A DNA stretch of 64,000 nt from a virus (IMGVR_UViG_3300031257_000001:1-64000), one strand, 5' to 3'. Counted from the first letter of the stretch, positions 2,221 through 27,127 are shown. Translations and numbers: made by a program. Notes: a model not told the origin generated them from the letters alone.

Positions 2221-2574
2221 ATGACGACAACCGAGATCACCCGCGAAGAACGAGACATCATCCGCAACGAGGAAAAGGCGCTGCGCAAGCTCAACAGCTG
2301 CCAACTTCGGATGTCGGCCAAACAGTCCGTCAGCTTGCAAGATAGCAGCAGGATGACTCGCCCCAGCCTCATCCTACACATCCTCCGCAACAAGTTCGGC
2401 GCCGGCGCTGTCGAGGCTGCCTACAGGAAGTTCACCCCGCAAGAGATGGCTTTCCGCGCCGACAATGGCGACTGGAAGCGCCGGATCGTCAAGACTGAGA
2501 GCGCTTTCGACCGACTGGCCGACAAGCTCAATGACGACGTTCGTGAGTGGCACGCCCGCGACGCAGAGTGGTGA
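2221..2574 (+). CDS. Hypothetical phage protein
   Basis: A 117-residue, charged and largely helical protein that I do not recognise. It starts with ATG after the extended ribosome site GGAGATCAGC and is the first gene after promoter P2. There are no membrane spans, Cys clusters or catalytic motifs. Confidence 0.7.
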   Translation: MTTTEITREERDIIRNEEKALRKLNSCQLRMSAKQSVSLQDSSRMTRPSLILHILRNKFGAGAVEAAYRKFTPQEMAFRADNGDWKRRIVKTESAFDRLADKLNDDVREWHARDAEW

Positions 2575-2667
2575 GAACATCGGTTCCAGCCTCGCCCGGA
2601 CCTCGCAGGAGGCCGGGAACGAGGCATTAGAAGGGCCCGGCGAGGGGCCACAACCTGGAGATCGGCC

Positions 2668-3270
2668 ATGCCAATTGAACGACACCAGATCGCCACGACC
2701 GACCCGCAGACCATCGAACGATTCGCCAAGGGCGGGAACGCCATCATCACCGTCGTGTCCATGCGCTCCGGGAGCCGGATGACCTACCGCGTGGCCAAGC
2801 TGGATCGAATCTTCGCCATCAAGGTGCTCAGCGGCCCTGACAACAGCGACCCGAAGCTGTACCAGTACATCGGCAAGGCGTACCTGGACAGACAGGATCG
2901 TTTCGTCCACGGAGGTCCCAAGGCGAGGGCCGGCGTTGACGCACCGAGCGTTCAACTGTTCACGTGGTTCTGGCGGAATCTTCATGCGGCGCTCCGCGGG
3001 ACCTCCAACACGCTCGACCAGTGCGAGGTTTGGCACGAGGGGCGTTGTGGCAAGTGCGGGCACCGCCTCACGGTCCCTGAGAGCCTTGCCACAGGACTGG
3101 GGCCAGAGTGTTCCAAGGTGCTTGGCGTGGTCCGTCCCAGGGTAGCGTCCAGGCGGAACGCCAAGCGTGGCAAGGTCGCACAGCCTCGTGTCACGACGGC
3201 CGACGATCGGCACCTTGGTCTTGACGACTCAGAGCATGAGATGCAACGGATTGAAGCGGAGGGCGACTGA
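2668..3270 (+). CDS. DUF6011-like zinc-binding protein
   Basis: A 200-residue protein. The centre (about 120-150) contains CGKCGHRLTVPESLATGLGP followed by Cys, matching the DUF6011 pattern (CxxC-x-LT-x-PES-x(n)-GPxC) found in phage and actinobacterial proteins of unknown function; Cys127, Cys130, Cys148 and a nearby His are the likely zinc ligands. The N-terminal half is an uncharacterised beta-rich region. The start follows GGAGATCGGC. The gene ends at TGA 3268-3270, but the same frame stays open for 33 more codons to a second TGA (3370-3372), so the product may be a truncated or readthrough form. Confidence 0.75.
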   Translation: MPIERHQIATTDPQTIERFAKGGNAIITVVSMRSGSRMTYRVAKLDRIFAIKVLSGPDNSDPKLYQYIGKAYLDRQDRFVHGGPKARAGVDAPSVQLFTWFWRNLHAALRGTSNTLDQCEVWHEGRCGKCGHRLTVPESLATGLGPECSKVLGVVRPRVASRRNAKRGKVAQPRVTTADDRHLGLDDSEHEMQRIEAEGD

Positions 3271-3401
3271 GCCCAGACCATCCGCGACGAAACCAACAAG
3301 ATGGCAGCACAAGCGGCCATGGAGGACGGCCCCGGCTTGCTCGTGGCGTTGCGTCAGCGGTTCGGCACCTGATTCATTAAGGGGTGGGGAGGATCGGTAG
3401 A

Positions 3402-3470
3402 GTGACGCCGGACACCACCGCAATGATGAAGGCGACCAACCAGACTAGCGAATCCTGTGTGGCGACGTGA
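3402..3470 (+). CDS. Possible 22-residue leader peptide
   Basis: A GTG-started reading frame with a GGGGAGG ribosome site about nine bases upstream. Its TGA overlaps the GTG start of the next gene (GTGA), as at many junctions here, so it may couple translation into the BRCT gene. Its short length makes the coding call weak. Confidence 0.3.
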   Translation: MTPDTTAMMKATNQTSESCVAT

Positions 3471-4570
3471 AGTTGGATGAGCTCAGAGCGCGGTTTCAGG
3501 GGCTGCCAAAGGAGCCCGCCCGACCTCCGGCGGTGACTGGGTCAGAATCTGTTGGTTTGGAGGCGTTCATGTTTCCGGATCCGGTTGACAGTGGGTTGAT
3601 TCGGGTCACAACATCACTTGAATCCCTCCGGAGGGCGACTGAAACGGGCGTCACACCTATCGAATGGTGCCGTGCCTTCGAGATGGCAGGATGGTCGGCT
3701 GATTCCACGATCCGTGATGTGAAGCAAGATTGGGACATGTTCACAGATGAGACCCACATCGGGGTCACGGTCGGCGCTCCCGGGGTGGATTCATACACAT
3801 GTCGAGTCTCCATCTCGGGGCACGGATTGGTTGACGCATCTGGCGTGATCGTGTTCGGTCTCCCGCCGATCTCAGCGATTGGCATGGAATTGGGGAAAGA
3901 TGTGACGGGACGATCCACGTTCCGTCCGGCGGCGGCACGGCCCCGGGCGAGGATTGAGGCGGAGGCAGAACCAGCGGTGGTGGCCTTGGGTGAAGAGCCA
4001 CCGAGGGGGAAGCTGCTAGCAGGGCGACACTTCATTATCACCGGCGTGCTGTCTCGCAAGCATGACGAGGTGTCCGCGGATCTCGTGTCCATGGGAGCCG
4101 GCGTGCACCAGAGCGTGCCAGCGGCTGTCAGGGCGGCAGTTTCCAAGTTGTGGGTCAATGTGGTCGCTGGCGACAGGCCAGGTTCCAAGCTCAAGGAAGC
4201 ACGGACGGCCGGGTTGAAGATCATCACAGAGGATGGGCTTCAGGCTGAGATCGACAAGGCCATGGCGGGGCGAGGATTGAGGACACTGGAAGGGCTCGCG
4301 CTTCACGAGAGGGTCGGATTGAAGGAGCACGCCGAAGCCATCTGCCGTGCCATCGTCCAAGAAGCTGTTGCCACCCGTGGCTGGACGGAGGGCCACGTTG
4401 AAGGGCGTATCGTGGACTCCACAGCATCGCTTGTCAGGATCATGATTGAGGAGCGAAGCGTCCAAGCGTATTGCATCGCGCAAATTCCACCTGGCGTTGT
4501 CGCCTCCAGCGCCACGATCCACGTGGAGATCCCACGTTTCCCTGACAAGGTTGAAAGTTGTGAAGCTTGA
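3467..4570 (+). CDS. BRCT-domain protein
   Basis: A 367-residue protein started by GTG. Residues about 183-262 read as a BRCT domain of the NAD-dependent ligase type: an initial LLAGRHFIITG strand, a central Gly-Ala turn (MGAGV), then AGDRPGSKLKEA, matching the conserved 'vaGd-x-GsKl-xkA' segment, and a final helix. The N-terminal 180 residues and C-terminal 100 are unassigned. BRCT domains bind DNA ends, phosphopeptides or other BRCT domains. No ligase nucleotidyltransferase motif is present, so this is not a ligase. The first ten residues (MKLDELRARF) resemble those of the next gene. Confidence 0.65.
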   Translation: MKLDELRARFQGLPKEPARPPAVTGSESVGLEAFMFPDPVDSGLIRVTTSLESLRRATETGVTPIEWCRAFEMAGWSADSTIRDVKQDWDMFTDETHIGVTVGAPGVDSYTCRVSISGHGLVDASGVIVFGLPPISAIGMELGKDVTGRSTFRPAAARPRARIEAEAEPAVVALGEEPPRGKLLAGRHFIITGVLSRKHDEVSADLVSMGAGVHQSVPAAVRAAVSKLWVNVVAGDRPGSKLKEARTAGLKIITEDGLQAEIDKAMAGRGLRTLEGLALHERVGLKEHAEAICRAIVQEAVATRGWTEGHVEGRIVDSTASLVRIMIEERSVQAYCIAQIPPGVVASSATIHVEIPRFPDKVESCEA

Positions 4571-4892
4571 TGAGATCAGAGCGAGACTTCGGGCTGGCGG
4601 CGACATCCGCACCAACACATCAGTTTGCCACGAGGTGCGCGTGATTGACCTGTCCATACCCGACTCCAGGCTTGCTATCAAGAACATGCTAGAGCAGAGT
4701 CTTGACATGCTAGGATGGGAGGATCCAGATGTGGTGGAGATGCCAGAACCTTGGCAAAGCGGGAAGCTCAGTTGGTGTGTGGAATATGGTGATGCGCAAA
4801 AGGGGCCTCGGGAACGCACACAGTTGAAAGCGGTTCGCATCCCCGGCGATGACATGATGGAGTTCCACATCACGAGAGGTGAAGGACTGTGA
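4560..4892 (+). CDS. Hypothetical protein sharing its N terminus with the BRCT gene
   Basis: A 110-residue protein. GTG 4560 is chosen because it lies inside the end of the preceding gene in the overlap style of this genome and gives an N terminus, VKLDEIRARL, nearly identical to the start of the upstream BRCT protein. The rest is unrecognised and acidic. The shared N-terminal peptide may be a common docking or regulatory tag, or the trace of a partial duplication. Confidence 0.6.
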   Translation: MKLDEIRARLRAGGDIRTNTSVCHEVRVIDLSIPDSRLAIKNMLEQSLDMLGWEDPDVVEMPEPWQSGKLSWCVEYGDAQKGPRERTQLKAVRIPGDDMMEFHITRGEGL

Positions 4893-5434
4893 CGAAGCGA
4901 AAGCAAGAAGAATGGGAACGGCTTGGGATGAAGCAGGAGGATCTGGCTCTGTGCCTTTCTCATGGAATCGAACCCACTGACTTGCTGGACTTCTGTCGGA
5001 TTCGCAACATCAGCCACCATCAGGCGATACTCGATGGCAAATATTGGAAGATCTGGAAGCGTGGCAACCAGGAGGGGACTGTGCGAGTATGGGCCCAAAC
5101 TGCCTACGAGGCGTGGAGTGTGGCGGCCGGCCGCCTTGGTCCGGAGGTCGGATTTGCTTCATGTGCTTTCGAGACAGATGGGAAGGTGACGGGGAACGAG
5201 CCGTTGTCAGGACCAGACCCGAAGCCAACAGACGGGCAACGCCTGTTCATCTACCATGCTACGAAAGGCCCGGTGGAGGCCAAACGACAACCAGACCGCA
5301 CCAAGCTACGACAACTTGGTCCAATTAACACATCAGGCGTTGGGCGTTTCATGCTTTATGGGGAAAAGCTGGACAGCGGCAAGCAGATAACGTGGGCCGT
5401 CAAGATCAAGGACAAGGACGATGAAAAGCATTGA
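4889..5434 (+). CDS. Hypothetical phage protein
   Basis: A 181-residue protein of unknown function. GTG 4889 overlaps the previous stop (GTGA), implying translational coupling. It is charged with a Trp/Tyr-rich middle section (around 48-75) and has no recognisable catalytic motif or membrane span. Confidence 0.65.
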   Translation: MTKRKQEEWERLGMKQEDLALCLSHGIEPTDLLDFCRIRNISHHQAILDGKYWKIWKRGNQEGTVRVWAQTAYEAWSVAAGRLGPEVGFASCAFETDGKVTGNEPLSGPDPKPTDGQRLFIYHATKGPVEAKRQPDRTKLRQLGPINTSGVGRFMLYGEKLDSGKQITWAVKIKDKDDEKH

Positions 5435-5960
5435 GAAGCTGGTCATTGAAGCAGCAATCGCGTGGTGGGAAGGGAAGCGCCCTTGTTCATTCACGTTGGA
5501 AGAACACCTGGAAAACCCGACGATCAACGTCGGCAAGAGCACACTCGCCCGGGAGCTGGCGGCGGCAGTCGGGGCTCTCCTTCATAAGCGCGCCAAGCGA
5601 CCTCCGCAGTACGACAGCGACGGCATGCACCTGGCAGTCCAGCACGACGGCCTTGAATCCTACATCGCTTGGTGGGCTGATGACACTGGCGAGGGGATGC
5701 AAGTCGGGCAAGAGGGCGACCTGGTAAAACGGGATAGGGAATTGGCGATCGTTCATGACGTGATGGAGTCGTTTGCAAAGGCGAACGACATGGAGCGCGA
5801 CTCGCGTGCAAGCACATGGAAGTTCAGCTCCGAGGCCAAGGCCCGGGCGGCCATGCGACAGCTGAACACAGCGCTGTCGCTAGCTTCCAACCCTCTGCCA
5901 CGCTGGGCATCAGTCGCGCTGAAGGAGGGTTGGGTGCCTCCGGAAGGATGGGAGCCGTGA
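5421..5960 (+). CDS. Hypothetical phage protein
   Basis: A 179-residue soluble protein. The start at 5421 lies inside the preceding gene. The segment TINVGKSTLAREL superficially resembles a P-loop but lacks the leading GxxxxGK spacing, so NTP binding is not claimed. The C terminus is Trp/Pro-rich. Confidence 0.6.
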   Translation: MKSIEKLVIEAAIAWWEGKRPCSFTLEEHLENPTINVGKSTLARELAAAVGALLHKRAKRPPQYDSDGMHLAVQHDGLESYIAWWADDTGEGMQVGQEGDLVKRDRELAIVHDVMESFAKANDMERDSRASTWKFSSEAKARAAMRQLNTALSLASNPLPRWASVALKEGWVPPEGWEP

Positions 5961-6202
5961 GCAAGGTGGAGCTACACTCAGCAATAACGGGTCCGGTCAC
6001 CGAGATAGGCCGGATGGAGATCAGCAACGACGGCACGAGCCGCCACCCTGCTTGTCAAACGTTAAGAACGCGTAGGTTGGGCCATCGACGCAAGAGCCAG
6101 ACCATTTGGCAGCTGCTGCAAAAGGCGATAGCCTCGGTGACGTGGGATTCATCGACTGGATTTGCCTCGGCATCTACATTTGTTTTGTCATTGTGGAGAT
6201 AG
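5957..6202 (+). CDS. Doubtful small basic protein
   Basis: An 81-codon frame from GTG 5957, overlapping the previous TGA as GTGA. The sequence is basic and low in recognisable structure. A competing frame (6142-6273) encodes a convincing membrane helix in the same DNA, so at most one of the two is likely to be the real product. Confidence 0.3.
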   Translation: MSKVELHSAITGPVTEIGRMEISNDGTSRHPACQTLRTRRLGHRRKSQTIWQLLQKAIASVTWDSSTGFASASTFVLSLWR

Positions 6203-22324: not shown

Positions 22325-24186
22325 GCGACGGCAATGCAGAAGTGGTCAACTTTGAGAGCGCCAGCCGGAGCGCAGACGGGGCCAATCGGAAAGCTCTGCG
22401 CAAGATCCGGGCGCGTGTCATCGAGGTCAACACAGAGAAGGCGGGAACCTCCCCAAGCGGATTGACAGGTGCCACCGCGAAGCCTGGCAAGAGCGAGGCG
22501 CCTCCCGAGGAGCCATTCCACACGCTGGCCCGGAAGGGTCTGGTCATCGAGCCCCCATTTGATATGCTCACGCTCGCGATGCTCGTGGAGCACAACAGCG
22601 AGCTGGGACAGTGCGTGGAGGCGATGGAGACCAACATCGACGGGACCGGGTTCAGGTTCATCTCCCGTTTGAAGTTGGACGACATCCCGCGTGACAAGCT
22701 GCCGTCGGAGGGCGGTGACGCCCCACCTGACGCTCCGAACCCAGAGATGACGCGCGCCTTGCGCGAAAAGACCAGGCTGACCAACTTCTTCACCTATTCC
22801 ACAGAGGAAAGCTTCACCAAGTTCAGGCGCAAGCTACGGCGCGACCTGGAGACCACTGGCAACGGCTACTTCGAGGTGTTGCGCAACGAGAAGGGCGACG
22901 TTCAGGGCTTCACCCACATCCCGTCCTACCAGATGCGGCTCGGGAAGTTGGAAGATGAGCAGCGACTTGTGGAGCGCAAGATTCTGGAATTGCAGGTTGA
23001 TGGCAGCGTCCAGATCAAGACACAGAAGGTGTGGCGTCGCTTCCGGCGCTACGTCCAGAGCCGGGCCATCCACCGTCGCAGCCTGTCCACAATCGAGGGG
23101 CACAAGGTCAGATGGTACAAGAGCTTTGGCGATGAGCGGGACGTTGACAAGCGTGACGGCCGCTATGCGTCGGAGGGCAAGCCTGTCGATGGCGACCAGA
23201 GAGCCACGGAGATCATCCACCTGAGCTTGTACAGCCCGCGCACGCCATATGGGCTGCCCAGGTTCATCGGGAACCTTTTGGCCATCTTTGGTGATCGGGC
23301 CGCTGAGGAGATCAACTACATCACATTCAGAAACAACAACATCCCGTCCATGGTCGTGTTGGCCTCCAACGGGCAGCTCACCGAGGGGACGATCAAGCGC
23401 ATTGAGAGCTTCGTGGAGAGCCAGATCCAGGGCTCCGACAATTACAGCAAGTTCCTGATCATCGAGGCGGAGCCGTTCGGTGAAGAGGGTGAGGACGGAG
23501 GGCAAGTCAAGGTTGACATCCAGCCGCTCACCAAGGACCAGCACCGGGACGCGCTGTTCCAGAACTACAGCCAAAACAACCAGGACAAGATCAGGCGTTG
23601 CTTCCGTTTGCCACCCATCTTCGTGGGGCGTTCCGATGACTACACGCGCGCGACTGCGGAAGCGAGCCGCCGTCTGGCCGACGAGCAGATCTTCAGTCCC
23701 GAGCGGGATGAATTCGACACTGTGGTGAACCGCGTCTTGTTCCCAGAGATGGGGATCCGCTTCCACCGCTTCAAGAGCAACAGCCCGAATACGACGGACA
23801 ACCAGCAGCTGGTCCGAATCCTCGCCGGCGCTGAGAAGACAGGCGGTATGACTCCACGCATCGCCCGGGCCATGCTGGAGGACATCCTGGGCATCGACCT
23901 CCCCGGCTTTCCGGAGGGCTTCCCTGCGGATTCGCCGTTCAGTTTGACAATGGCTGAAGCCGTCAAGAACAAGGGTGATGCGTCGGAGCCCGGGCAGCAG
24001 GTGACGGCGTTGAAGGCCATCGAGCAACTCACCGGCGGCGACCTCCTGGACTTCGATGACGACGATGAGAGCCTGCTGTCGGTGGCCAAGAAGCTGATGG
24101 CTCTCCAGAAGGCGGCAGAGGTGGCATGGCGCGCCAAGCTCGCCCGGGATGGTGAGCTTGATGAACCTGGCGCCGGCGCCGACTGA
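22321..24186 (+). CDS. Portal protein
   Basis: A 621-residue protein, ATGA overlap with the terminase. PBSX/SPP1-type portal features are present: an N-terminal disordered region, then MLVEHNSELGQCVEAMETNI, a central region with SLYSPRTPYGLPRFIGNLLA, and the C-terminal RATAEASRRLADEQIFSPER. It forms the dodecameric ring at the head vertex through which DNA passes. The acidic C-terminal tail is usual for the family. The next gene starts within its last codons, as portal and MuF-type proteins often do. Confidence 0.9.
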   Translation: MSDGNAEVVNFESASRSADGANRKALRKIRARVIEVNTEKAGTSPSGLTGATAKPGKSEAPPEEPFHTLARKGLVIEPPFDMLTLAMLVEHNSELGQCVEAMETNIDGTGFRFISRLKLDDIPRDKLPSEGGDAPPDAPNPEMTRALREKTRLTNFFTYSTEESFTKFRRKLRRDLETTGNGYFEVLRNEKGDVQGFTHIPSYQMRLGKLEDEQRLVERKILELQVDGSVQIKTQKVWRRFRRYVQSRAIHRRSLSTIEGHKVRWYKSFGDERDVDKRDGRYASEGKPVDGDQRATEIIHLSLYSPRTPYGLPRFIGNLLAIFGDRAAEEINYITFRNNNIPSMVVLASNGQLTEGTIKRIESFVESQIQGSDNYSKFLIIEAEPFGEEGEDGGQVKVDIQPLTKDQHRDALFQNYSQNNQDKIRRCFRLPPIFVGRSDDYTRATAEASRRLADEQIFSPERDEFDTVVNRVLFPEMGIRFHRFKSNSPNTTDNQQLVRILAGAEKTGGMTPRIARAMLEDILGIDLPGFPEGFPADSPFSLTMAEAVKNKGDASEPGQQVTALKAIEQLTGGDLLDFDDDDESLLSVAKKLMALQKAAEVAWRAKLARDGELDEPGAGAD

Positions 24187-27127
24187 TCAGCTAGCCGACG
24201 CTGGTTGGTGGATTGGGTGCGAGATCTGCGCCCAATCATCGCTGGCCCTGTATGACATCCTAGTCATCTCTGACGAGCTGGTGGTCAAAGGGTTGCTCGT
24301 TCCGGAGATGGCACAGATTGCGCGCAACGAGGACCGCCTGCGCCAGCTCCTGCTCGCACAGTGGCGCGTGAGGTCAAAGCAGGCGGTCGAACGCTCGCAC
24401 GCGGTCTGGATGTCCAGCGGGGACCTCGCTGCCTCGATGGCGGCCGTGGACGTCGTGATGTCCAAGTGGGCAGATGACGTCAAGGGCCGATTCACACAGG
24501 GGCTGATCGACATCTACACGTTGGGTCGTGAGGCGGGAACGAAACGGGCCGCCGGCATCATCACGCGGCCGCTGGACTACACTGTCGGCAACTTCACCGA
24601 GCAGCTGGGCGACCAGGCGCGCATCGCCAAGGCGACTCCGCGAGTGGCCACGGCGTTCGATGTGTACGATGCTTCCGCCGTCACCGCGTTGATGGATGAG
24701 CAGATGTTGTGGATCGGCCGTCACTACGGTGCGAACGTCAGCGAGACCATCCGCCGTTCGGCGCGTGAGCAGATCGTCGGGCGCGGCCTGGGCCGGCGCG
24801 AGGCCGGGAAACTGCTGCGTGATGACGTGGCACGCAACCTGGATAAAGTGACCGTGCCCAAAGGCTTCAACGGGAGCCAAGCCAAATATTTTGAGGGGCT
24901 GGCTGCCAACGCCGCAACCATCGGGAGGGTCCGGGGTCAGATTCGTTCGTTCCAGGACTTGGGTGTCACACGCTACGTCTTGTCCAACCCGATGGACCGC
25001 AGGACCACGCGCCAGTGCATCCACATGAACGGGAAGGTGTTCACGGTCCAGAACGCTGTCAATCAAATTGAGCGGACCGCCGGGGCGACTTCCCCGGACG
25101 ACATCAAGCGTGACCATCCGTGGCTCTCCATGTCACAGATCCTGGCCGTCTCGCCTGTCGCTGGCCGATCCACGGCCGCCGATTCGGGGAAGCTTGCAGC
25201 GGCCGGCTTCTCGCTTCCACCTTTCCACTTCCGTTGCATGCCAGGATCCACCACAGTCCAAGGCCAAGTAGAGATGGTCTCAAAGAGGCTCTACTCTGGT
25301 GAAATCGTGGAAATACTTACGGAAAGCGGCAGACGAATTGCCTTGACGCCCAATCACCCCGTACTTGCCGTACAAGGATTTGTCTCTGCTGAGTCTGTTC
25401 ACAATGGCATGGATCTTGTCTGCTACAAGATCAGGACGGAACGGCTTGCGGTCGGGACCGGCATTAGCCTCAACGTACAGAACAAACCAGCCGCTGTCCA
25501 GCATGTATTTGAGTCGTTGTTTGTAGCGTTCGACAGACTTGTGATTCGGCGGTGCCCCGGAGACTTCTATGGCGAATCGGATGTTATGGATGGCAAAATC
25601 CACGTTGTATCTGTGGATAGCAAATTGTCTGGTGAATTGAAGACCAGATTTCAAGAACGCATCATTGAATGCCGCCTCAATTTTGGAGAATCTGCCGCGC
25701 GTCCAACATCTGCTTTGGGCCGTGTTGGCTCTGGCGATCATCTCTCTGTCTCCAATTGTTCGAGTGCGGGCAGCACGCCAGGCTGCACCGCATTGTCTTG
25801 TGATCAATTCAACTCTATTCGGAGCAGATTTCACCCTGAACCACTTGATAGCGTTTGCTTCGGACCTGCCTCTGATCTTGGCGCCTTGTCTCCTGAGGAA
25901 GGACACGACAGCGTTCTCAGAGACTCCGTGCAGCTGGCCAATCGACTTAGGGGACTTTCCGGCCTTGTAGAGTTGGATCGTGTCGTTTCCGTCAGGAGGT
26001 TCCCATTTCGCGGCCATGTGTATGATCTCCAAACCAGAACTGGTTGGATCATAGCCGAAGGAGCATTCATAAGCAACTGCCGTACCACCGTGGACATAGC
26101 TCCGGGGCAGACGGCATTCAAGCCTCTCACTGCGCAAGAACAGCGGCTGACCATTCCTGCCAAGCCACGGCCGACTCCCAAGCCACGGCCGGCCGTTGCC
26201 AAACCGCTCGCCAAGCCGAAGCCGACCAAGAAGCCCACGACGACACCGAGGTCAATGCCTGCCGCCAGGAGACCGGCGACGATGCCGCCGGTGGATCCAC
26301 TGGCTGTGTTGCAAGCTCCCGTCAACAGCTTCAAGCCACTGGGTGGTGGTGCGAATTCATCCGAGCTGCTGGAGCTTGAAAACGGCATCAGCGTCGTGTG
26401 GAAGCCGGCCGCTGGCGAGAGTGCCACTCTGACCGAACATGTTGGCGGTGCGCTTCACAAGCGCGAGGCTGCTGCGTACCAGATTGACCAGATAGTCGGG
26501 ACCAATGTTGTACCGAGGACGGCGCTTCGCAAGTACGGCGGCGAAGTCGGGAGTGTCCAAGAGTTCATCGGTAGCGCCGTTGAGTTGGACATGGCATCTC
26601 CGGCAGCAATTGCTTCTGCTTCAGCCAACTCTGCACAGAGGATGTCGCTTCTTGATGTGATCATCGGGAACACCGATCGTCACTCGGGCAACGTCATGGT
26701 GGCAAAGATCGGAGGGAAGCAGCAATTTGTGGCGATAGACAACGGGTTCTCCATGCAGCAGTCAGCTCAGCTTGTTCGTCGCTGGTACTATAACGGTGAA
26801 GCCTCATACGAGGTGTCAAAGAGCAAGGCGTTGGCGATGTTCGATTTCAGACCGTTGGCGGCTAATCTGGAGGCTGCATCGCTGGCTGATACGGCGGCCG
26901 CCCTCGCGGCGAGTGGCGTTGAAAGAGACGCAGCCACGCAGGTTGTCGGGAGGCTGGCCGCATTGAAGCGCCACCCCATGGCGTTGCACAGGACGGTAGC
27001 CGGCGCCGAAGGTGAGTCCCCTGCGTTGTACAAGACGAAGGATTGGGTGGGTGGTGAATGGAAGGCTGGGCTGTCTGCTGCTGACACAAAGGCCATCCAA
27101 ACTGCCATAAGTGGTGCGTACAAATGA
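24149..27127 (+). CDS. MuF-like head morphogenesis protein with intein and C-terminal kinase-like domain
   Basis: A 992-codon precursor. N-terminal helices lead to a SPP1 gp7/MuF-like domain (about 190-362 plus 644-650): SNPMDRRTTRQCIHMNGKVF and PPFHFRC. The Cys-rich end of this domain is interrupted by an intein (residues 363-643); splicing would join FHFR to CRTTVDIAPG. After a Pro/Lys-rich linker (665-714) comes a PI3/4-kinase-like (HipA/actin-fragmin-kinase-like) domain: Lys752 in VVWKPA, the catalytic loop IIGNTDRHSGN (836-848) and IDNG with Asp864. MuF proteins sit inside the head and can be ejected with DNA, so the kinase could act in the host cell. ATG 24149 overlaps the portal gene; ATG 24161 is an alternative. 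Confidence 0.85.
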   Translation: MVSLMNLAPAPTDQLADAGWWIGCEICAQSSLALYDILVISDELVVKGLLVPEMAQIARNEDRLRQLLLAQWRVRSKQAVERSHAVWMSSGDLAASMAAVDVVMSKWADDVKGRFTQGLIDIYTLGREAGTKRAAGIITRPLDYTVGNFTEQLGDQARIAKATPRVATAFDVYDASAVTALMDEQMLWIGRHYGANVSETIRRSAREQIVGRGLGRREAGKLLRDDVARNLDKVTVPKGFNGSQAKYFEGLAANAATIGRVRGQIRSFQDLGVTRYVLSNPMDRRTTRQCIHMNGKVFTVQNAVNQIERTAGATSPDDIKRDHPWLSMSQILAVSPVAGRSTAADSGKLAAAGFSLPPFHFRCMPGSTTVQGQVEMVSKRLYSGEIVEILTESGRRIALTPNHPVLAVQGFVSAESVHNGMDLVCYKIRTERLAVGTGISLNVQNKPAAVQHVFESLFVAFDRLVIRRCPGDFYGESDVMDGKIHVVSVDSKLSGELKTRFQERIIECRLNFGESAARPTSALGRVGSGDHLSVSNCSSAGSTPGCTALSCDQFNSIRSRFHPEPLDSVCFGPASDLGALSPEEGHDSVLRDSVQLANRLRGLSGLVELDRVVSVRRFPFRGHVYDLQTRTGWIIAEGAFISNCRTTVDIAPGQTAFKPLTAQEQRLTIPAKPRPTPKPRPAVAKPLAKPKPTKKPTTTPRSMPAARRPATMPPVDPLAVLQAPVNSFKPLGGGANSSELLELENGISVVWKPAAGESATLTEHVGGALHKREAAAYQIDQIVGTNVVPRTALRKYGGEVGSVQEFIGSAVELDMASPAAIASASANSAQRMSLLDVIIGNTDRHSGNVMVAKIGGKQQFVAIDNGFSMQQSAQLVRRWYYNGEASYEVSKSKALAMFDFRPLAANLEAASLADTAAALAASGVERDAATQVVGRLAALKRHPMALHRTVAGAEGESPALYKTKDWVGGEWKAGLSAADTKAIQTAISGAYK
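25280..26017 (-). CDS. Homing-endonuclease-like gene antisense inside the intein
   Basis: A 245-residue protein on the strand opposite to the intein. Residues about 12-45 are an HTH (IQLYKAGKSPKSIGQLHGVS). Residues about 110-175 look like a Vsr-like/PD-(D/E)XK nuclease: Glu114 in FSKIEAAF, Asp140 in IHRYNVDFAI, Glu151 and His159 in AIEVSGAPPNH, then KQRLKYMLDSGWFVLYVEAN, the strand-helix-strand expected after the catalytic core. ATG 26017 has GGAGAT seven bases upstream and a TTGCTT-17-TATGAT promoter. The codon register is exactly antisense to the intein. It would cut intein-free alleles to spread the element. Confidence 0.8.
   Translation of the reverse strand: MAAKWEPPDGNDTIQLYKAGKSPKSIGQLHGVSENAVVSFLRRQGAKIRGRSEANAIKWFRVKSAPNRVELITRQCGAAWRAARTRTIGDREMIARANTAQSRCWTRGRFSKIEAAFNDAFLKSGLQFTRQFAIHRYNVDFAIHNIRFAIEVSGAPPNHKSVERYKQRLKYMLDSGWFVLYVEANAGPDRKPFRPDLVADKIHAIVNRLSRDKSLYGKYGVIGRQGNSSAAFRKYFHDFTRVEPL
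26025..26030 (-). promoter_or_regulatory. Ribosome binding site of the antisense endonuclease
   Basis: Reverse-strand GGAGAT, seven bases before ATG 26017, the same core as the GGAGATC boxes of the early genes at 178, 2221, 2668 and 12256. On the + strand these bases encode Asp-Leu of the intein block F motif GHVYDL. Confidence 0.7.
26048..26076 (-). promoter_or_regulatory. Sigma70-like promoter of the antisense endonuclease
   Basis: On the reverse strand: TTGCTT (26076-26071), exactly 17 bp, TATGAT (26053-26048). The -35 box lies over the codons for Ser280-Asn281 and ends one base inside the intein border at 26077, so the promoter is carried within the element. It resembles early promoter P1 (TTGCCT-17-TATGTT). 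Confidence 0.6.

Follow-up and report, generated by a model that had tools for sequence, protein, structure and literature searches.

The 64,000-nucleotide stretch of viral DNA analysed here (IMGVR_UViG_3300031257_000001:1-64000, hereafter the window) encodes a MuF-like minor head protein whose gene is interrupted by an intein, and the strand opposite the intein carries a second gene, that of a predicted homing endonuclease. The host open reading frame (ORF) spans positions 24149-27127 on the plus strand, encodes 992 amino acids and matches phageSPP1_gp7 (E 6.5e-6). Within this ORF lies the intein coding sequence (25235-26077, plus strand; 281 amino acids), which begins with Cys1 and ends in Ser-Asn, followed by the extein residue Cys+1. 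With C1 at 25235, the final N at 26077 and C+1 at 26078, the junctions read PPFHFR/CMPGS and GAFISN/CRTTVD (the slash marks the boundary), and the sense ORF remains open throughout. The insertion point, FHFR/CRTT, corresponds to the conserved, zinc-type HPN/C-R-C site of MuF proteins. The antisense gene occupies positions 25280-26017 on the minus strand, encodes 245 amino acids plus a stop, and is in codon register with the intein, so that sense and antisense codons pair one to one.

On the sense strand, both Pfam Intein_splicing (E 7e-7) and NCBIfam intein_Nterm (E 1.7e-6) match the ORF. The N-terminal Hint part with blocks A and B (25235-25429, plus strand) is delimited by a hidden Markov model (HMM) match at E 9e-28, and the C-terminal Hint part with blocks F and G and the +1 Cys codon (25976-26080, plus strand) by a match at E 1e-18. 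In the structural model, both ends of the intein adopt the Hint fold with a predicted local distance difference test (pLDDT) score of 93-98, and Foldseek matches it to the RecA, RadA and GyrA inteins with a probability of 1.00. Among 72 sense members of the family, Intein_splicing is matched in every case, the block B residue His41 (of TPNH) and the C-terminal Asn281 are invariant (72/72), and C1 is found in 69, the other three having a gap at this position. Family searches with the window and these 72 members revealed no endonuclease in the sense translation, Intein_splicing being the only family between the termini. The sense linker opposite the nuclease (intein residues 150-225; 25682-25909, plus strand) has a pLDDT below 50 and is predicted to be disordered. 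With Hint folds at both ends and this region between them, the nuclease coding sequence, when read in sense, appears to yield a largely disordered linker. The family matches and the model identify the window element as an intein with a Hint splicing domain, which is predicted to splice. A preliminary description of this DNA had placed an intein with blocks A, B, F and G at these same coordinates in a MuF-like gene and had noted that its sense translation lacks an endonuclease; the families found and the Hint fold bear out both statements.

The antisense protein matches the DUF559 family (E 8.4e-7), above the curated Pfam cut-off, and more weakly the PD-(D/E)XK-type family MTES_1575 REase (E 0.0027). 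Among 103 antisense members, 87 match MTES_1575, and helix-turn-helix (HTH) families are matched among the relatives. An AlphaFold model, for which the input was a 103-sequence alignment of the window and fetched loci only, reaches a mean pLDDT of 93.7 and consists of a helical HTH N-terminus followed by an alpha-beta-beta-beta-alpha-beta arrangement. The HTH, presumed to recognise DNA, comprises antisense residues 10-43 (25889-25990, minus strand), as assigned by DSSP on the model and by the HTH families in relatives, while the Vsr-like nuclease core comprises residues 112-183 (25469-25684, minus strand), as assigned by families, model, fold and profile matches. The closest solved folds found by Foldseek are the homing endonuclease I-Bth0305I (PDB 3r3p) and Vsr (1cw0, 1vsr), with a probability of 1.00 and E-values of 0.003-0.01, and profile comparison matches the protein to 3hrl (E 8.6e-6) and I-Bth0305I (E 1.4e-4). 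Asp140 (25598-25600) and Glu151 (25565-25567), both encoded on the minus strand, are invariant in 103/103 relatives; Glu114 (25676-25678, minus strand) is kept in 101 and R168 in 102 of them. A 245-residue antisense protein with an HTH and a Vsr-like/PD-(D/E)XK nuclease had been postulated earlier, and the ORF, the DUF559 match, the model with its strand order and the best solved matches all agree with it. The catalytic pattern put forward at that time holds for E114, D140 and E151, but not for H159, as most relatives (75/103) instead carry His at column 156, where the window has Pro. By family membership and predicted structure, the antisense protein is a free-standing HTH and Vsr-like (I-Bth0305I-like) nuclease.

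The start of this gene lies within intein block F. Read in reverse complement, the CAT codon for His261 in the block F motif GHVYDLQ supplies its ATG (26015-26017, minus strand), and the YDLQ codons of the same block supply a Shine-Dalgarno-like GGAG (26027-26030, minus strand) 9 nucleotides before the ATG. In the family, such GGAG or GAGGT sequences are the reverse complement of the block F D-L-Q/E codons. The block F Leu codon is CTC in 69 of 91 loci (p 6e-28), a codon used for 21% of Leu in the exteins, and the block F His codon is CAT in 76 of the 91 (p 2e-15). By these counts, codon choice in block F is skewed toward keeping the antisense ATG and Shine-Dalgarno sequence. In loci L013, L015, L060 and L066, block F reads GHVYDASS, not DLQ, and AGGAGG is still present about 8-10 nucleotides before the antisense ATG; its retention despite the changed block F suggests selection on the ribosome binding site itself. 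Additionally, the inteins show a bimodal length distribution (about 272 and 310-340 amino acids), their length correlates with that of the antisense ORF (r 0.91), and the longer nucleases, among those compared, have extra HTH-like sequence at the N-terminus.

This architecture extends well beyond the window. A tblastn search with the antisense protein returned 102 phage records, mostly at 27-35% identity. In the first nine records examined, the match lies opposite a head or minor capsid gene, no gene is annotated for it (9/9), and an intein is present in the sense frame with the nuclease in the antisense frame (9/9). Alignment-based searching yielded contigs from bacteria (11) and viruses (269), of which 80 were kept, with about 46 more from a second query; a search of viral contigs with the window protein alone returned nothing, the relatives being reached only via the alignment, and the Salmonella protein as query added a single contig. 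The resulting 160 loci from phages and prophages include some near-duplicates, about 118 being left after their removal. The nuclease is antisense to the intein blocks in exact codon register in 159 of the 160, and the N- and C-terminal blocks fall within one open sense ORF in 149. Most of the remaining loci have no match to one of the blocks, several of them at contig ends. The sole break of the sense frame is found in L151 (GenBank MG969410, Salmonella phage GE_vB_M5), a record marked UNVERIFIED; here, frameshifts disrupt the head gene as well as the antisense frame, and sequencing errors are probable.

Relatives occur in phages of Gordonia, Mycobacterium, Salmonella, Pseudomonas, Vibrio and Aggregatibacter, among other phages, as well as in bacterial genomes of several phyla. 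No free-standing relative of the Vsr-like antisense nuclease was found among the 160 loci. The antisense ORF is annotated in only two of the fetched phage records, PK1 and vB_StyS-sam, in both as a 'hypothetical protein'; the nuclease escapes annotation owing to its position opposite a head gene.

The exact codon register must cause conservation of the sense frame to be imprinted on the antisense frame to some extent, and it could be argued that the intein alone is a real protein, with the antisense similarity a mere shadow of its conservation. The same register lets the effect of every substitution (synonymous or nonsynonymous) be scored separately for the two frames, and a two-frame substitution test was carried out on 17 independent pairs (3098 core codons), with the N-extein as control. 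In the intein core, omega, a dN/dS-like ratio, is 0.13 for the antisense frame (bootstrap 0.11-0.16) and 0.48 for the sense frame (0.37-0.60), whereas the N-extein gives 1.13 (0.81-1.55) and 0.14, respectively. Core substitutions that are nonsynonymous in sense and synonymous in antisense number 514, compared to 135 that are nonsynonymous in both frames. In the core, substitutions at sense positions 1/2/3 number 897/276/518; the N-extein has 1336/1001/2100, and blocks F/G have 14/13/89. The core codons that were compared contain no antisense stop, whereas the N-extein control contains 265. In block A/B, where the coding sequence overlaps the C-terminus of the nuclease, the two-frame values are 0.29 and 0.15. 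In combination, these region-dependent rates and periodicities indicate that the core behaves in evolution like an antisense gene and the splicing blocks like a sense gene, and that block A/B shows both patterns. The antisense frame is kept open in homologous inteins, and both frames are under constraint, with the stronger constraint on the antisense frame in the core; both outcomes favour the preliminary description, which had named them as tests.

Individual positions show the same reciprocal restriction. The invariant Glu151 of the nuclease limits the facing sense residue, 111, to Phe or Leu (72/72), and Asp140 limits its counterpart to Val or Ile (72/72), while the sense His41 limits the antisense residue to Val or Met (103/103). 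The sole conserved motif of the sense linker, EDFHGDG, faces the AVE catalytic strand of the nuclease, which is a shadow cast by the antisense frame on the sense frame and not the reverse. Given that the core is less constrained in sense than in antisense, with a position pattern unlike that of the exteins, and that the antisense protein has nuclease and HTH family matches and a model at pLDDT 94 while the sense linker is disordered, a shadow similarity is extremely improbable. The two-frame test with its extein control rejects it, unless the pairs are misaligned. From register homology and the two-frame test, the in-register antisense nuclease is a family-wide architecture, far beyond what chance would produce.

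The distribution of the element bears the marks of mobility. Intein-less MuF genes are common and can be up to 96.5% identical to intein-bearing ones. In several pairs, the inteins are far closer to each other than the exteins are: the antisense proteins of L060 and L066 share 66% identity and the exteins 25%, and L149 and L155 have 96% nucleotide identity in the intein compared to 69% in the extein. Most insertions are at the MuF HPN/C-R-C site, other MuF positions being used in L150, L006 (Sejanus) and L031. The insertion is in Phage_min_cap2 in L045, where the host was tested, and the same flanks are present in L014 and L099. In L040 (sense 2446-6117, minus strand), the intein lies outside head genes, before the motif Cys (HYS/CGAAATM) of an apparent C39-like peptidase, the host having only a weak Peptidase_C39_2 match (Pfam E 0.012) beside the motif HYS/CGAA; the host proteins in L062, L076 and L036 were not recognised by Pfam. 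The Gordonia phages Fosterous (L161), Lennon (L165) and Sedona (L166) carry three different inteins at the same site in exteins that are 94-98% identical, which, judged by these identities, is a natural record of intein replacement. Empty sites, the mismatch between intein and extein divergence, and intein swapping support homing of the element.

Taken together, we consider it likely, with a probability of about 0.88, that the homing endonuclease of this intein is encoded antisense to the coding sequence of the intein itself, codon opposite codon, and that it acts in homing. Homology, register, selection in two frames, predicted fold, a conserved start and Shine-Dalgarno sequence, empty sites and horizontal transfer are all observed in the data presented here; from them we infer transcription of the antisense strand, cleavage of the insertion site and homing. 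The sense frame would give a Hint splicing domain with a disordered linker in place of the usual intein endonuclease, and the antisense frame would give a separate HTH and Vsr-like nuclease from its own ribosome binding site and ATG, both provided by the reverse complement of block F. The nuclease would then bind and cut the conserved zinc-motif site in the intein-less MuF gene of a co-infecting phage, and recombination repair would copy the intein into the cut gene, with both genes moving together. Because the nuclease gene is on the opposite strand, its expression need not depend on late transcription of the head gene or on splicing.

An antisense nuclease that is real and expressed might instead have a chief role other than homing, such as cutting the intein-less head gene of competitors or controlling the head gene by way of antisense RNA. 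The head gene of a competitor is a costly target, and phage homing endonucleases can exclude competitors as a side effect. However, sporadic presence, empty sites, the use of the same conserved site, transfer as a unit across divergent exteins and intein swapping are marks of homing, and interference and homing are compatible with each other, which leaves a chief role of this kind very unlikely.

Several points weigh against a homing endonuclease encoded in this manner, or against an active one in the window. All of the evidence is computational. Around the antisense gene, a consensus scan of the window detected neither a sigma-70-like promoter nor a terminator, although such a scan says little for phage promoters. 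The Foldseek E-values are modest (2.8e-3) despite the probability of 1.00. His159 is not conserved, and the activity of the window copy is not assured because the common His156 is absent from it. Finally, the antisense nuclease of the relative L088 (2989-3705, plus strand) contains one in-frame premature stop while its sense intein frame is intact. The stop in L088 likely reflects a decaying homing gene, as is expected for genes of this type. These last two points would also fit a window copy that is itself a decayed relic of an otherwise functional family. Such decay is unlikely, as the window copy has a full-length open frame in which E114, D140, E151, R168 and the Shine-Dalgarno sequence with its ATG are intact.

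An antisense nuclease of a second type is found in Lennon, whose intein lacks the Vsr-like nuclease and instead has an in-register antisense ORF (L165:2546-3136, minus strand; 196 amino acids from ATG) with the LAGLIDADG-type motif AAYVAAFIDGEG. By tblastn, its product has relatives among free-standing phage endonucleases (E 2e-6 and 8e-6), one of which, CcrRogue gp061, matches Pfam LAGLIDADG_1 (2e-6). The Lennon protein itself has no passing match in Pfam, and it matches I-MsoI weakly (E 0.0013). In the one pair compared, Lennon and Barsten, the middle of the intein has 43/4/9 changes at sense positions 1/2/3, and the classes comprise 35 sense-nonsynonymous/antisense-synonymous, 4 both-nonsynonymous and 2 sense-synonymous changes, which is the signature of antisense selection also seen with the Vsr-like nucleases. 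A LAGLIDADG-type antisense nuclease is also present at the same MuF site in Sitar, Nordenberg, Thing3, Barsten and SchottB. As the LAGLIDADG-type nuclease of Lennon is unrelated to the Vsr-like one, antisense placement seems to have arisen at least twice. Antisense encoding may well be a general and repeatedly evolved way to keep a continuous splicing ORF together with an independently expressed nuclease, with at least two origins (Vsr-like in most loci, LAGLIDADG in Lennon, Sitar and Barsten) and with block F serving as ribosome binding site and start of the nuclease; we regard this broader view as somewhat favoured.

Outside the intein, the C-terminal part of the MuF-like head protein resembles the PI3/PI4-kinase-like SCO1664 family (PI3_PI4_kinase E 1.7e-8; TIGR03843 E 3e-18, below cut-off). 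A kinase-like domain is possibly fused to the MuF head protein at 26380-26980 (plus strand), or approximately residues 745-944.

Inteins in which no endonuclease is recognised are usually taken to be immobile mini-inteins, and a large class of them here carries an intact nuclease. The pair would rank among the clearest fully overlapping antisense genes, with recognised folds, invariant catalytic residues and measurable constraint in both frames, and would offer a clean model for functional antisense overlap, which is disputed in prokaryotes and their viruses. The arrangement would also explain how an intein could control its nuclease independently of a late structural gene. In addition, it contributes Vsr-like nucleases whose target site, the MuF zinc motif, can be predicted.

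Full-text searches of the literature turned up no description of an antisense endonuclease inside an intein, though a preprint on 'non-canonical' actinobacteriophage inteins may overlap with the present case. Arsenault et al. (2025; PMC11855218) state that overlapping frames 'also occur frequently in Actinobacteriophages' and refer for this to Gorbalenya 1998 and to a preprint from Gosselin and colleagues; by this remark the Gordonia and Mycobacterium part of the phenomenon may already be described. In the literature surveyed, the closest documented counterpart is the ShiLan/Pacc40 insertion, an out-of-frame HNH on the same strand, in which its authors detected no signature of self-splicing (Arsenault et al., 2025; PMC11855218). 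This is likewise a homing nuclease in a non-host frame of an uninterrupted phage gene; however, the nuclease in the present case is Vsr-like and on the opposite strand, and a splicing domain, which the ShiLan insertion lacks, is present.

The element resembles classical LAGLIDADG or HNH inteins in its Hint fold and its blocks A, B, F and G, and like them it is sporadically distributed and inserted where a conserved active or zinc site lies. In those inteins, the endonuclease is inside the intein polypeptide, whereas here it is a protein apart, encoded antisense with a start and ribosome binding site of its own. The 'fractured genes' reportedly described by Dassa et al. in 2009 are split inteins with a Vsr-like endonuclease gene between the halves, and are thus said to combine an intein and a Vsr-like nuclease in phage-type genes as well. 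There, host gene and intein are in two ORFs, while here an unbroken intein lies within a single ORF in 149 of the 160 loci, with the nuclease overlapping it on the opposite strand. Some group I introns of nuclear ribosomal DNA have an endonuclease gene on the antisense strand and are also mobile self-splicing elements, but they are RNA elements without a coding duty, unlike the present element in which both strands are protein-coding. I-Bth0305I and Vsr are similar to the antisense protein in nuclease fold and in the order of secondary structure, with the profile match to I-Bth0305I given above, and the presumed homing role would be shared with I-Bth0305I. Unlike I-Bth0305I, a Vsr/EDxHD-type enzyme in a group I (RNA) intron of a Bacillus phage, the window gene is antisense within a protein-splicing element and overlaps its codons. 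The component parts, a Hint domain and a Vsr-like nuclease, are of known kinds, and it is their arrangement that differs from the systems compared.

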